From Mycobacterium mantenii (GTDB taxonomy: Bacteria; Actinomycetota; Actinomycetes; Mycobacteriales; Mycobacteriaceae), in the NCBI RefSeq assembly GCF_010731775.1, contig NZ_AP022590.1:1302001-1366000 (forward strand): a DNA stretch of 64,000 nucleotides. Direction: 5' to 3'. Positions 42,388-46,846 of the stretch are shown piece by piece (within the stretch, counting starts at the first letter, position 1; every line of letters begins with the position of its first letter). The position numbers and the translations under genes were made by a program. Below the pieces are notes generated by a model that did no database searches, was not told the DNA's origin, and saw nothing but the letters and a program-made list of their open reading frames with translations.

Positions 42388-42572
42388 CTAAGCCTTTTCG
42401 CGGTCTGTGCCGAGGAATCGCCGAAATGGTCTATGAGGGGTGATCATGCCGGCGTTCCACGGCACCGCGCATCGAACGGACGCCTTCCGTTGCCGATCAG
42501 GGCCTGCGCCCTCCCGCGAAATGAACCATCCCGCGTTTGATGCGCACCTCCTTCCTTGGGAAGGTGCATGTC

Positions 42573-42887
42573 ATGCCGAGCAAGTACGACCCGCAGACGC
42601 GGGCCAAGGCGGTCCGTCTGGTGTTGGAGCACCGTGCTGACTACCCAAGTGAGTGGGCGGCGATCACGGCGGTGTCCAAGCGGTTGGGGATGACGGCCGA
42701 GACGCTGCGTAGTTGGATCCGTCAGCAGCAGGTCGACGACGGTGATCGTGACGGTGTCTCCTCGGCGGCGGCCGCTGAGATCCGCGCCCTCAAGCGGCGC
42801 AACGCCGAGCTCGAGCAGACGATCGAAATCCTCAAGGCGGCAACGTCTTTCTTCGTGCGGGAGAGCGACCCGCGCAACCGCCGCTGA
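42573..42887 (+). CDS. IS3-family transposase OrfA
   Basis: A 104-residue DNA-binding subunit. A helix-turn-helix (AAITAVSKRLGMTAETLRSW) spans about residues 28-47, followed by a leucine-zipper-like coiled coil (AEIRALKRRNAELEQTIEIL) near 66-85. OrfA binds the terminal repeats and is joined to OrfB by a -1 frameshift. The ATG at 42573 matches family N-termini; the 12 codons upstream are not needed. Confidence 0.9.
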   Translation: MPSKYDPQTRAKAVRLVLEHRADYPSEWAAITAVSKRLGMTAETLRSWIRQQQVDDGDRDGVSSAAAAEIRALKRRNAELEQTIEILKAATSFFVRESDPRNRR

Positions 42888-43744
42888 CCAGTTCGGTCTG
42901 CGAGTTCATCGCCAAACACAGGCACCGCTTCGGGGTCGCTCCGATCTGCCGCGTGCTCACCGAGCACGGTGTGCCGATCGCCCCACGCACCTTCTACGCC
43001 TGGGTCAAGCGGGCACCGTCGAAGCGAGCCCTGTGGGACGCCACCATCAGCGAGGTCTTGGCCGGCTACTACGAACCCGATGAGCACGGCCGGCGCAAGC
43101 CCGAGTCGCTGTACGGGTCGGTGAAGATGTGGGCACATCTGCAGCGCAAAGGCATCCCGGTGGCGAAGTCCACGGTGGAACGCCTGATGCGCCGAAACGG
43201 GTGGCAGGGCGTACGCCGCCAGAAGGCCGTGCGCACCACGATCGCCGACCCGGCGGCGGTGAGGCCACCGGATCTGGTGGATCGCCAGTTCGGGGTGGGC
43301 GCACCCAACCAGCTGCTCGTTGCGGACTTCACCTACGTCAAGCTCGTCACGGGGGTGTTCGTCTACGTCGCATTCGTCATCGACGCCTACGCCGGGGCGA
43401 TCGTGGGATGGGAGGCCTGCGCCTCCAAGCAGACCCAGTTCGTCGAATCGGCGATCCGTCAGGCCGTCGCATTGCGGTCGCGTCAGGGTCACCCGATCGA
43501 GGACGCCATCCACCACAGCGACGCAGGATCGCAGTACACCAGCGTGAGATTCGGTGAAACACTTGCCCTTTCGGGCATCCGACCCTCGGTCGGCAGTGTC
43601 GGCGATGCCTATGACAATGCTCTGGCCGAGACCACGATCGGACTCTACAAGACTGAGTGCATCCGGCCTGATTCCCCGTTCCGTCGCGGGCCGCTCACCA
43701 CGGTCGGTGACGTCGAGTACATCACCGCCGACTACGTCGCCTGG
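42842..43744 (+). pseudogene. IS3-family transposase OrfB, 5' part
   Basis: In the frame -1 to OrfA the sequence reads VCEFIAKHRHRFGVAPICRVL, the usual OrfB N-terminal domain, then an rve/DDE integrase core. The three catalytic acids are present: Asp in LLVADFTYVKL, Asp in HHSDAGSQY and Glu in YDNALAETTIGLYKTE. The protein stops matching after ITADYVAW at 43744, where the inner element begins; the last 40 residues lie at 46698-46820. The slip site is not a classical A-rich heptamer; a T/C-rich run near 42846-42852 is the likely region. Confidence 0.88.
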
Positions 43745-43750
43745 TTTGGA

Positions 43751-43763
43751 TATGCGGGTAATC
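43751..43763 (+). repeat. Left inverted repeat of the inner element
   Basis: TATGCGGGTAATC. It matches the reverse complement of the right end (TATGCGGGTGATC) at 12 of 13 positions. Probably the recombinase core-binding site. Confidence 0.8.
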
Positions 43764-43823
43764 CTCGGCGTGTCTTTCGTGGTGCTGCGGGGCTGGCGCG
43801 GATGCTGTGGGCGGGAGGTTGCC

Positions 43824-44837
43824 ATGTTCATGCCGTGCCTGGTTCGACCGCCCGACGGGGGGGTTCCGCAGTTGGGGCATCGGCTGCTCGACGAGTACCT
43901 CCAGATGGTTGCCGCCCGGGCGCGACCGAACACGGTGCTGGCCTCAGCGTTCGACCTGAAGGTGTTCTTCTCGGTAGTGGGCAAGTCGCCCGAAGACGTC
44001 GTCGGCGAGGACGTGTTGTCATTCATCCGGGAGCAGCGTCAGCCCCGCCGTGGCGCGGAGGTGGTGCGGATTGAGGACGGTGAGGCGGGGCTGTCGGCGC
44101 GCACGATCAAGCGGCGGCTGGCCTCGGTCACCGGGCTGTTTGAGTATCTGATCGTTCGTGGTGTTGTCGCGAGAAATCCGGTGCCGCAAGGGTTGTCGAC
44201 GCGGACTCCGAGCCGCGCGGTGCGTGGGGTGCCGTTGATCCGCACTCCGCGCACCCTGCCGCGGGTGATCGACCCGGATGAGGCCGACGCCTTGATGCGG
44301 GCGCTGCGCACCCACCGGGATCGGGCGATGGTACAGGCGATGCTGCTCGGCGGCTTGCGTCGGTGCGAGGTGCTCGGGCTGCGGCTGCGCGATGTGCATC
44401 CTGGCGAGAAGCGGTTGTTCATCGCCGACGGTAAGGGCGGACATCAGCGGATCGTGCCGGTGTCACCGCGCTTTTTCGCTACCCTGGCCAGCTACCTGGA
44501 TCTGGAGCGCCCGGCCACCGCGTCGACCGATCATGTGTTCGTCGTGCTGAAGGGCCAACGTCGGGGTCGGGCGCTCAGCGCGGCCGGCTTGGACGAGATC
44601 GTCGCCGGTGCCCGAGGTCGCGCCGGCATCGAGCATCTGACCTGTCATCAACTGCGGCACACCTGTTTCACCCGGCTGCGTGAGGCCGGGATGGCGCTGG
44701 AGGCGATCCAGGCCCAGGCCGGGCACCGCTCGATCGAATCCACCCGCATCTACCTGCATTTGGCCAACGACTGGCTCGCCGGCGAATACCGGCGCGCGGT
44801 CGAGGCGATCGACGCACAAGCGATGCAGGCACCGTGA
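43824..44837 (+). CDS. Tyrosine recombinase, TnpA-like
   Basis: A 337-residue integrase-family recombinase. The N-terminal SAM-like core-binding domain spans about residues 14-115. The catalytic domain holds Arg in GGLRRCEVLGLR, Lys in DGKGGHQR, HQLRH, and GHRSIESTRIYLH with the final His and Tyr nucleophile. All active residues are present. The ATG at 43824 has GGGAGG upstream; the frame is open further back through the IS junction but that part is not recombinase. The stop overlaps the next start. Confidence 0.9.
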   Translation: MFMPCLVRPPDGGVPQLGHRLLDEYLQMVAARARPNTVLASAFDLKVFFSVVGKSPEDVVGEDVLSFIREQRQPRRGAEVVRIEDGEAGLSARTIKRRLASVTGLFEYLIVRGVVARNPVPQGLSTRTPSRAVRGVPLIRTPRTLPRVIDPDEADALMRALRTHRDRAMVQAMLLGGLRRCEVLGLRLRDVHPGEKRLFIADGKGGHQRIVPVSPRFFATLASYLDLERPATASTDHVFVVLKGQRRGRALSAAGLDEIVAGARGRAGIEHLTCHQLRHTCFTRLREAGMALEAIQAQAGHRSIESTRIYLHLANDWLAGEYRRAVEAIDAQAMQAP

Positions 44838-46666
44838 TACCCGCACCACAACAGTCGGTGGCCGCAGATGACGCCTCGCTCATCGAGGACTACCTGGCCG
44901 CGATGCGGGCTGCCGGGCGCAAGACCGGCCGATCTACAGTTCAGGCTGCGCAAACGTGCCAGGCCAAGATCCGCCGGGCCGGCGGATGGGGTGGCCTCAC
45001 CGCCGAGCAGCAGATTGACGCGGTCGCCAAAGCACCCTCGTTCACCTCGTGGTTGATGGTCACCAGCCGCATCACTGTGGATGCCGAACTGCTTAGCCAA
45101 ACCGATCTGCGGCCAGGACTCCCGGCACGCCAGTTCTGCGCCACCGACTATCACTGGTTCAGCGAAAGTTGTTCCCGGATCGGTGTCTCGGCAAGGGACT
45201 CTGCGGCGCAGTGGAACATCTTGGCGAAGATCACCGCGATCACCGGTGTGTCACCGGGCGCGATCACCGGCGAACATTTCGACGCCGCCCGCGTCGCGAT
45301 GACCACCGCCTACGCCCGCCGGGGCAAGCCCACCGCGGGCCAGAACGTGGCCGCGGTCTTTCACCGTTTGCGGCTGACGCTCTTCCATGCCGGCCGGATC
45401 CCCACGCTGCGCCCGCCGCCAGCGCGGCAACCCGTCTCGGTGACCGGATGGGCAGCCGTCACACCGGGTTTCGCGGCTACCGCCCGCCGCTATGTGGAGC
45501 AAGTCACGTTGAGTCTGCGCCCGAGCACCGTCAAGAGCATCGAACACGACCTGCGCCAGTTCGGCACCTGGCTCGCGCACACCTATCCCGATGTGGCGTC
45601 CTGTGCTGATCTTGAGCGCACGCACATCGAGGCGTTCAAACGATGGTTGTCGACGCATCCCACACCGAGCACGGGCAAACCGCTTAACCGGGTCAGCATC
45701 AAGAACGCCCTGATCAACCTGCACTGCTTTCTCACCCGTACCGCCGAGTGGGGCTACCCGAACTCGCCGATCCGGCCGCTGATGTTTCCCGGGGACTTGC
45801 CCATCATCGACAAGCCGCTGCCACGCTTCCTCGACGACGCCGCCGCGACGAAGCTGTTGCGCTCCGCGCGTGCGGACCCGGACCCGTTGTCCCGGTTGAT
45901 CATCGAATTGTTGGCCCGCACCGGAATCCGCCGCAGCGAACTGCTCGCCCTGACTGTGGACGCGGTCGTGCAGATCGGATCCGCCTACTGGCTACGGATC
46001 CCGATCGGCAAGCTGCACAACGACCGCTATATCCCCTTGCACCCACAGCTGAAGGACCTGCTCGACGACTGGATCAGCCATCACCGACCCAGCGGTCTGC
46101 GCACCGATCGCCTTTTGCTCGAACACAATCGACCGATCAGCTCCCACCGCATCACCGCCGCGTTGCGTCGCGCTTCCGAAACAGCCGGCATCGACAACGT
46201 CACCGCCCATCAGCTGCGTCACACCTTGGCTACCCAAGCGGTGAACCGTGGCATGAGCCTCGACGCGATCGCAGCTCTGCTCGGACACAAAACCTTAGCC
46301 ATGACAATGATTTACGCGCGAATCGCCGACAAGACCGTCGCCGAGGAGTACTTCGCCGTCACCGAGAAGGTAGAAGCACTCTACGGCCAACCCCACCAGC
46401 TCGCCAGCGATGACGAAGGCTGCGAAATGCGCAAGCTCCGCACCGAGATGCACCGCCGCATGCTGGGCAACGGCTACTGCGCACGCCCAGTCGAGATGGA
46501 CTGCCACTTCGAATCGATCTGCGAATCCTGCAGCTTCTTCGTCACCACCATCGAGTTCCGGCCCACCCTGCAACGCCAGCGTGACGATGCCGCTCGCAAG
46601 GGCCAGGTCGGCCGTCAGAAGGTCTTCGATGGCCTCCTCAACCGCCTCGACACCACCGCGTCGTGA
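44834..46666 (+). CDS. Tyrosine recombinase with Cys-rich tail, TnpB-like
   Basis: A 610-residue recombinase. Residues 1-about 210 form a long N-terminal region; a core-binding domain lies near 215-325. The catalytic domain has Arg in RTGIRRSELLALT, Lys in IGKLHNDRY, HQLRH, and GHKTLAMTMIYAR with His and Tyr. After about 525 comes a tail with cysteines in GYCARPVEMDCHFESICESCSFF (two blocks, C...C...C-x2-C), a possible zinc site near residues 549-571, as in Tn554 TnpB-type proteins. GTG start overlaps the upstream stop, so the pair is translationally coupled. Confidence 0.88.
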   Translation: MIPAPQQSVAADDASLIEDYLAAMRAAGRKTGRSTVQAAQTCQAKIRRAGGWGGLTAEQQIDAVAKAPSFTSWLMVTSRITVDAELLSQTDLRPGLPARQFCATDYHWFSESCSRIGVSARDSAAQWNILAKITAITGVSPGAITGEHFDAARVAMTTAYARRGKPTAGQNVAAVFHRLRLTLFHAGRIPTLRPPPARQPVSVTGWAAVTPGFAATARRYVEQVTLSLRPSTVKSIEHDLRQFGTWLAHTYPDVASCADLERTHIEAFKRWLSTHPTPSTGKPLNRVSIKNALINLHCFLTRTAEWGYPNSPIRPLMFPGDLPIIDKPLPRFLDDAAATKLLRSARADPDPLSRLIIELLARTGIRRSELLALTVDAVVQIGSAYWLRIPIGKLHNDRYIPLHPQLKDLLDDWISHHRPSGLRTDRLLLEHNRPISSHRITAALRRASETAGIDNVTAHQLRHTLATQAVNRGMSLDAIAALLGHKTLAMTMIYARIADKTVAEEYFAVTEKVEALYGQPHQLASDDEGCEMRKLRTEMHRRMLGNGYCARPVEMDCHFESICESCSFFVTTIEFRPTLQRQRDDAARKGQVGRQKVFDGLLNRLDTTAS

Positions 46667-46682
46667 CCGCCGCCCTTGACAC

Positions 46683-46695
46683 GATCACCCGCATA
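46683..46695 (-). repeat. Right inverted repeat of the inner element
   Basis: GATCACCCGCATA on the plus strand, the inverted partner of 43751-43763 with one mismatch. It lies 16 nt after the TnpB-like stop and 2 nt before the orfB remainder. Confidence 0.8.
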
Positions 46696-46697
46696 AG

Positions 46698-46820
46698 TAC
46701 AACCAGCAGCGCCTCATGCACCGCCTCGGCCGAGTCCCACCCGCCGAAGCCGAAGCCCAGTACTATTCCCAACACGTGACCGACCAACCGGCCGGCTCAC
46801 AGAACCCCGAGGGTGCATGA
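46698..46820 (+). pseudogene. IS3-family transposase OrfB, 3' part
   Basis: Reads YNQQRLMHRLGRVPPAEAEA followed by QYYSQHV and a stop at 46818-46820, the standard C-terminus of IS3 OrfB (YNxxRLH...PxExE..YY). Joined to the 5' part at 43744 it restores ...DYVAW-YNQQRL... in frame. The 40 codons have no other use. Confidence 0.88.
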
Positions 46821-46846
46821 AACCCGGGATGCTTCAAAAAGCCCTG

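Follow-up and report, generated by a model that had tools for sequence, protein, structure and literature searches.

A Tn554-like transposon with two tyrosine recombinases probably targets a conserved stretch of IS3-type OrfB in Mycobacterium mantenii and in related elements

The stretch of 64,000 nucleotides from Mycobacterium mantenii analysed here (contig NZ_AP022590.1, positions 1,302,001 to 1,366,000; referred to as the window) carries an insertion sequence (IS) of the IS3 family whose transposase gene, OrfB, is split by a second mobile element (here referred to as the insert). In our view it is highly probable that the insert is a Tn554-like transposon pared down to two tyrosine recombinases and its ends, and that it attaches in IS3-type OrfB genes, close to their C-terminus, at a conserved Trp/Phe-(Tyr/Phe)-Asn stretch. 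An earlier note on this DNA was partly supported: it had the order of events right but gave an incomplete account of their meaning. It overlooked that the site, judging from the sequences, is not accidental: relatives of the insert hit the same codon of many different IS3 elements, which argues for site-specific targeting.

Without the insert, the IS is 1,362 bp long. It spans 42522-46836, from its left terminus (TGAACCATCC...) beginning at 42522 to its right terminus (...GGGATGCTTCA) finishing at 46836, and both ends as well as the AAA on each side (42519-42521 and 46837-46839) are intact, as had been claimed. The last codon before the insert is TGG (Trp, 43742-43744) and the next is TAC (Tyr, 46698-46700), in agreement with the proposed cut between Trp and Tyr. 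The search that the earlier note had suggested, for uninterrupted copies of an IS of about 1.36 kb in the same genome (6.19 Mb, one contig), was run and found nine, matched over the 5' part with about 100% identity in eight and 96% in one. The sequence GCCTGG^TACAACCAGCAG (a caret marks the junction) is read unbroken, as TGG-TAC-AAC, in all 8 printed uninterrupted copies, and in the ninth CTGGTACAAC was found where expected. Because these copies read TGG-TAC straight through, 46698-46820 is the natural C-terminus of OrfB, on which the earlier note had staked its reading. The existence of uninterrupted local copies makes the insert secondary; together with its single copy in the genome, they support the order of IS first and inner element second, and the description of an IS3-family element split by an insert with readable junctions stands. 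Compared with these copies, the net insert is 2,953 bp, and no target bases are lost or duplicated. The junction bases G and T can be assigned to either side, hence three equivalent placements of the insert. OrfB had been said to resume in frame 2.95 kb later; this is true of the codon boundary only, because the net insert measures 3x984+1 bp.

The NCBIfam IS3 model matches the broken copy over positions 87-351. Among the other nine copies, five have one open frame over 87-369, a frameshift splits three more, and the last is degenerate. The IS, which had been expected to be immobile now, may still be mobilised in trans, since five other copies keep a complete OrfB and the window copy keeps both ends. 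Three copies in the window genome (G000, 2943960-2945182, 2876765-2877987 and 5771533-5772755; genomes and loci are given by our G and L numbers) have a common split OrfB frame and may therefore be one inactive lineage. The 3 bp repeated on either side of the IS look like a target duplication; they match in 6 of the 9 copies read (the window, L002, L003, L004, L005 and L007) and not in L006, L008 and L016. With OrfA carrying a helix-turn-helix (HTH) domain, OrfB carrying the rve integrase core, terminal inverted repeats and the 3-bp duplication, the outer element is like other members of the IS3 family, and the insert is its sole unusual feature.

The insert itself has two overlapping genes, both encoding tyrosine recombinases, of 337 (int1) and 610 (int2) amino acids, between 13-bp imperfect terminal repeats (TATGCGGGTAATC / TATGCGGGTGATC). 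No third gene was seen in it, and in particular no tnpC in the stretch from int2 to the right terminus. The catalytic positions are invariant in alignments of 13 int1 and 19 int2 proteins; going by the family pattern, they correspond to Arg, Lys, His, Arg, His and Tyr. The 19 int2 proteins also have four invariant C-terminal cysteines. The predicted structure of int2 is weak (mean pLDDT 72.9, pTM 0.41), and Foldseek and sequence searches, which led to Xer and integrase relatives for its C-terminal half, added little. This anatomy points to a two-tyrosine-recombinase Tn554-like element, which supports the term "second transposon" used before. Three other identities were discarded. First, a group II intron was ruled out, both genes of the insert being tyrosine recombinases. 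Second, an RIT element was ruled out, as the insert has two recombinases and not three. Third, as to a phage, 181 phage records match int2 and none of them does so over 80% of its length.

We collected relatives by similarity of the recombinases, without use of the flanks, and read the junctions afterwards; repeat fetches of the same place were counted once. Matches were found in 6 of 397 genomes from the order, in 12 of 396 from the genus, in 3 of 396 from the phylum (with int2) and in 4 of 394 from the class (with int1), where each count includes the window's own genome and each search has its own cut-off. Moreover, 1,128 plasmid records matched, 40 of them among the matches listed, and nine of these were read. 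The named loci gathered were 35, of which seven (L046-L052) are unrelated tyrosine recombinases by our reading. A 21-bp left-end signature was found in one of 401 sampled genomes of the family, namely the window's own, other known carriers evidently lying outside the sample. Of the elements gathered, 65 had a readable junction; L034, L036, L079, L042, L044, L045 and L096/L078 were left out for having no readable end, L058 because the contig ends at the repeat, and L141 as degraded. By our reading, 57 of the 65 lie in transposition or recombinase genes.

The window belongs to target type A, with 18 copies and 15 distinct junctions, all in IS3-type OrfB. Every one of the 18 sits at the same codon and in the same (sense) orientation, and the right side opens with Tyr/Phe and then Asn/Asp in all of them. 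On the left, Trp is the last residue in 11 of 12, with L018 as the exception. Six of seven left halves match the NCBIfam IS3 model and all six stop at position 350 (the left half of L080 gave no match), while the right half of L025 starts at position 351. These counts bear on the idea that insertion is loose and that only insertions into dispensable IS genes survive. Insertion into an IS is presumably harmless, and most of the counted elements do lie in mobile DNA; but such selection would spare any position of an IS in either orientation, whereas type A occupies one codon in one orientation, and types B, C and D each occupy one other position. Chance landing was dropped as the leading explanation once the relatives proved to occupy the same codon, and we now give it very little credence.

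Most of the related clades use fixed sites of their own. Type B (12 copies, nine distinct by our reading) interrupts tyrosine recombinase genes in antisense orientation, at a point that separates the catalytic His (LLGH and variants) from the catalytic-Tyr box; its nine N-terminal fragments all match Phage_integrase, and each has the same His as its last residue. It has also split int2 within other elements of the class, of type A in G466, G435 and G681 and of type D in G618. Type C (seven copies, six distinct) lies antisense in IS3 OrfA between ILKxAS and FFAxELDR, where the OrfA profile stops at 81 in 3 of 3. Type D (12 copies, 11 distinct by our reading) lies in the IS21 gene IstA between FGG and VPxxxYDN; 17 of 18 fragments match IS21, the left halves ending at 173/174 (6/6) and the right halves beginning at 176-179 (4/4). 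The left motif test is passed by 8 of 11 type D elements; in the three that fail it, a final DG or NG was read by eye. Two elements of type F lie in weakly matching IS3-like OrfA genes (E 3e-4 and 4e-3), two lie in ISL3 genes (L027 by profile, L039 by eye), and L064 lies in an ATPase gene, whose profile name is only XrtA-associated ATPase and which we read as a transposition helper. For type B, 11 of 12 right sides pass, the junction script not having located that end of the element in L136; the left flank of L089 has a stop in the motif frame (10 of 11 pass). The script's distinct-junction counts (B=10, D=12) are each one too high by our reading, given that L136 was misread and that the target of L089 is that of L088.

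Several observations accompany these types. Loci L080, L081-L084 and L136 show a three-level nest, in which an IS3 element holds a type A element that holds a reversed type B element inside its int2. The own LLGH stretch of type B int2 uses TTG in six of seven read (L084, L085, L086, L087, L081 and L089), the targets of type B mostly have CTC there, and type B L068 retains CTC; the TTG may protect against self-insertion. In L027 (2933-3951, Dormiibacterota), the right terminal repeat lies about 1 kb past int2 and the right flank matches ISL3, and this element may thus carry extra DNA or a second nested end. Three distant cousins, L106, L107 and L108, carry a DUF6262 (TnpC-like) gene and have different terminal repeats (TTGACCGGCTAATC); they split IS3 OrfB at a second motif, GxC^xDNA, just before DNA..ES.

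Target type follows the recombinase tree. Labels were assigned from the flanks before tree building, and 47 rows were kept, with L037 excluded as too short. On the int1 protein tree the nine target labels need 8 changes, which is the minimum possible, while shuffles of the labels on the 40 distinct labelled rows (1,000 trials) needed at least 21, with a mean of 26.6. Long branches are those of L102, L071 and L140. Type A forms two supported groups connected only via unresolved branches, and it may therefore have arisen twice.

A shared site could also reflect descent, if one old insertion had occurred and the IS and insert had since diverged as a unit. The window and G435 have the same kind of IS with a related insert, and G681 holds four copies of one composite, as descent would have it. 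Yet the window IS hardly differs from the uninterrupted copies in the same genome, and in G435, where one copy of the local IS is empty and another occupied, the two are 97.7% identical over 133 bp and 95.1% over 143 bp. Between the window and G435, identity is 82% for the element, 86% for the 5' part of the IS and 92% for its last 140 bp. This is most simply read as two insertions into two local IS lineages. Moreover, the transposases read at the 15 type A junctions are of many different kinds, and the genes hit by sister clades are unrelated; we regard a single old insertion as very improbable. In G681 there are ten near-identical IS copies, all occupied at or beside the W^YN site: four by type A with type B inside, and six by a different insert. 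The composite IS::element::element at four places does not by itself tell the way it spread. The different insert (L134 2876-4946, also L124-L128) stands right after TGGTACA and has a reverse-transcriptase-like open reading frame of 556 amino acids, so that an unrelated mobile element occupies the same spot of OrfB. By eye it is a group II intron; Rfam gave no match at gathering scores on three short loci of G681.

A third possibility is that the recombinases read nothing but a short DNA word, about CTGGTWCAAC, which happens to occur in IS3 genes. The consensus CTgG^T(a/t)CaAC is indeed common to the type A junctions. In the window genome the word occurs 40 times, compared with 31 for a reversed control, and by coordinates 11 of the 40 lie in IS3 genes. 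A rule based on the word only would therefore send most insertions elsewhere, yet all 18 type A copies lie in OrfB; either the enzymes recognise more than the word or copies inserted at other places disappear, and selection could account for part of this contrast. We consider the short-word rule improbable, with more in its favour than the two explanations above.

Against targeting of the OrfB stretch and of similar sites, several points have to be weighed. Eight of the 65 elements, including the type E clade, lie outside transposition or recombinase genes, and no recognisable recombinase gene was found at the sites of type E, L071, L140 and L101. Type E occupies five places (L138, L139, L105, L099 and L097) with conserved short flanks (ATGCCG..GAGCG right, TGCTTG left) in varied surroundings; a tRNA target was dismissed, as no tRNA gene was found in six loci scanned. 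Among the 57 elements, evidence is weak for four: the two of type F, L039 and L064 were assigned by weak matches or by eye. In addition, one genome contributed several copies, which are not independent in this count. The left flank of L018 has neither the Trp nor a recognisable OrfB. The IS3 model (E 0.05) matches just 16 of 29 type A and G fragments, and the remaining ones are mostly short C-terminal pieces with support from the motif only. Selection against insertions into host genes could sharpen the pattern, and movement is deduced from a comparison of empty and occupied copies.

Table. Features of the IS3-family element and of the insert in the window.
Feature	Position	Strand	Basis
AAA, left 3-bp direct repeat flanking the IS	42519..42521	.	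comparable repeats in 6/9 copies
IS left end (TGAACCATCCCGCGTTTGATGCGCACC)	42522..42548	+	same start in other copies
OrfA of the IS, ATG at 42573	42573..42887	+	HTH_Tnp_1; weak IS3 match
OrfB N-terminal part, last residue Trp (TGG)	42887..43744	+	IS3 profile 87-351
Inserted two-recombinase transposon, net 2,953 bp	43745..46697	+	uninterrupted copies; equivalents 43744-46696, 43746-46698
Left spacer TTTGGA	43745..43750	+	constant in nearest relatives irrespective of target
Left terminal repeat (TATGCGGGTAATC)	43751..43763	+	sequence
int1, tyrosine recombinase, 337 aa	43824..44837	+	domain/profile matches, alignment
int2, long tyrosine recombinase, 610 aa, four conserved C-terminal cysteines	44834..46666	+	domain/profile matches, alignment
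Right terminal repeat (TATGCGGGTGATC on the minus strand)	46683..46695	-	sequence
OrfB C-terminal part (YNQQRLMHRLG...), stop TGA 46818-46820	46698..46820	+	uninterrupted copies, IS3 profile
IS right end	46811..46836	-	comparison with other copies
AAA, right 3-bp direct repeat	46837..46839	.	sequence

The closest known system is the actinobacterial Tn554-like class, which the accessible part of Van Houdt et al. 2012 (PMC3414803) defines as including pairs without TnpC, e.g. on pREL1. The insert shares with it an adjacent long and an ordinary tyrosine recombinase in the same direction, here overlapping and of 610 and 337 amino acids, the lack of TnpC, and an occurrence mostly in Actinobacteria. 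The long protein has 611-828 amino acids in the class according to that part of PMC3414803. The match on pREL1 (NC_007491) covers the whole of int2, and the pair annotated there is without TnpC; this pair (L104) is a relative, and the identity of int2 with the members of the pair on a sister plasmid is about 48%. The same part of PMC3414803 gives no target sites for the class beyond the remark that several attB may exist, and it places one RIT element in a transposase gene and one in radC. RIT elements likewise have tandem tyrosine recombinases, but three of them. In its accessible part, PMC8138268 describes a TnpA group of recombinases and gives no targets.

Tn554 of Staphylococcus, whose one main site is radC, likewise has two tyrosine recombinases, imperfect terminal repeats and site-specific insertion without target duplication, the last of which also holds for the insert. 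It differs in having TnpC, where the insert has no third gene, and is described with a 6-bp donor footprint, where the insert has an IS-gene target and a constant spacer. The elements called SEs share one ordinary and one large recombinase, imperfect repeats of 13-19 bp and target specificity, but have four core genes, a 6-bp footprint, a reported copy-out mode of movement and sites that include host genes such as bcp. As far as the available part of PMC10214605 goes, an SE has landed in the insJ gene of IS3 in E. coli, which sets a precedent for an IS3-gene target, and the constant spacer and right-side target bases of our elements do not look like the 6-bp donor footprint given there for SEs and Tn554-related elements. 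The class is known, and its targeting habit is the part we did not find described: the open literature, so far as accessible, yielded no description of transposase-gene targeting by this class, subscription papers and ISfinder being outside the scope.

The clade-wise targeting is read from sequence, and from it we infer how strands may be exchanged. Within subgroups the left spacer does not vary (TTTGGA or TCACGA), and on the right a single constant A precedes the target bases. int1 and int2, with some division of labour between them, would act jointly on the ends and form a circle with the junction CCCGCATA-A-G-TTTGGA-TATGCGGG, i.e. CCCGCATA-AGTTTGGA-TATGCGGG. Recombination of the circle with the target at one point would give x^G on the left and A^N on the right, and a single exchange point between positions 1 and 2 of the 8-bp spacer would account for both products. 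With such a single-point exchange, the spacer would stay with the element and target duplication would be absent. Residence in the recombinase genes of other mobile DNA would offer many landing sites at low cost to the host, and insertion would disable the IS copy that is hit. Because its relatives hit the same codon or other fixed spots in recombinase genes, the element looks like a specialised parasite of transposons and not like a chance landing.

We lean slightly towards a wider view, in which the class would be a guild of hyperparasitic transposons. Each clade would be locked onto a different conserved codon block of mobile-DNA enzymes, namely IS3 OrfB W^YN, IS3 OrfB C^DNA, IS3 OrfA, IS21 IstA, ISL3 and, with the cousin elements included, the His-to-Tyr box of tyrosine recombinases. 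Switching of motif would give rise to new clades. The splitting of such genes would act as a natural brake on IS elements and on the guild's own kind, and nested stacks would therefore be expected.

If the targeting is as proposed, a poorly understood class would gain a readable targeting rule, by which elements attach at conserved codons in transposase and recombinase genes. Related clades use different sites, so target choice by paired tyrosine recombinases could be compared clade by clade. It would also suggest that IS elements are to some extent controlled by other mobile DNA, and would give a reason for the nested mobile elements in actinobacterial genomes.

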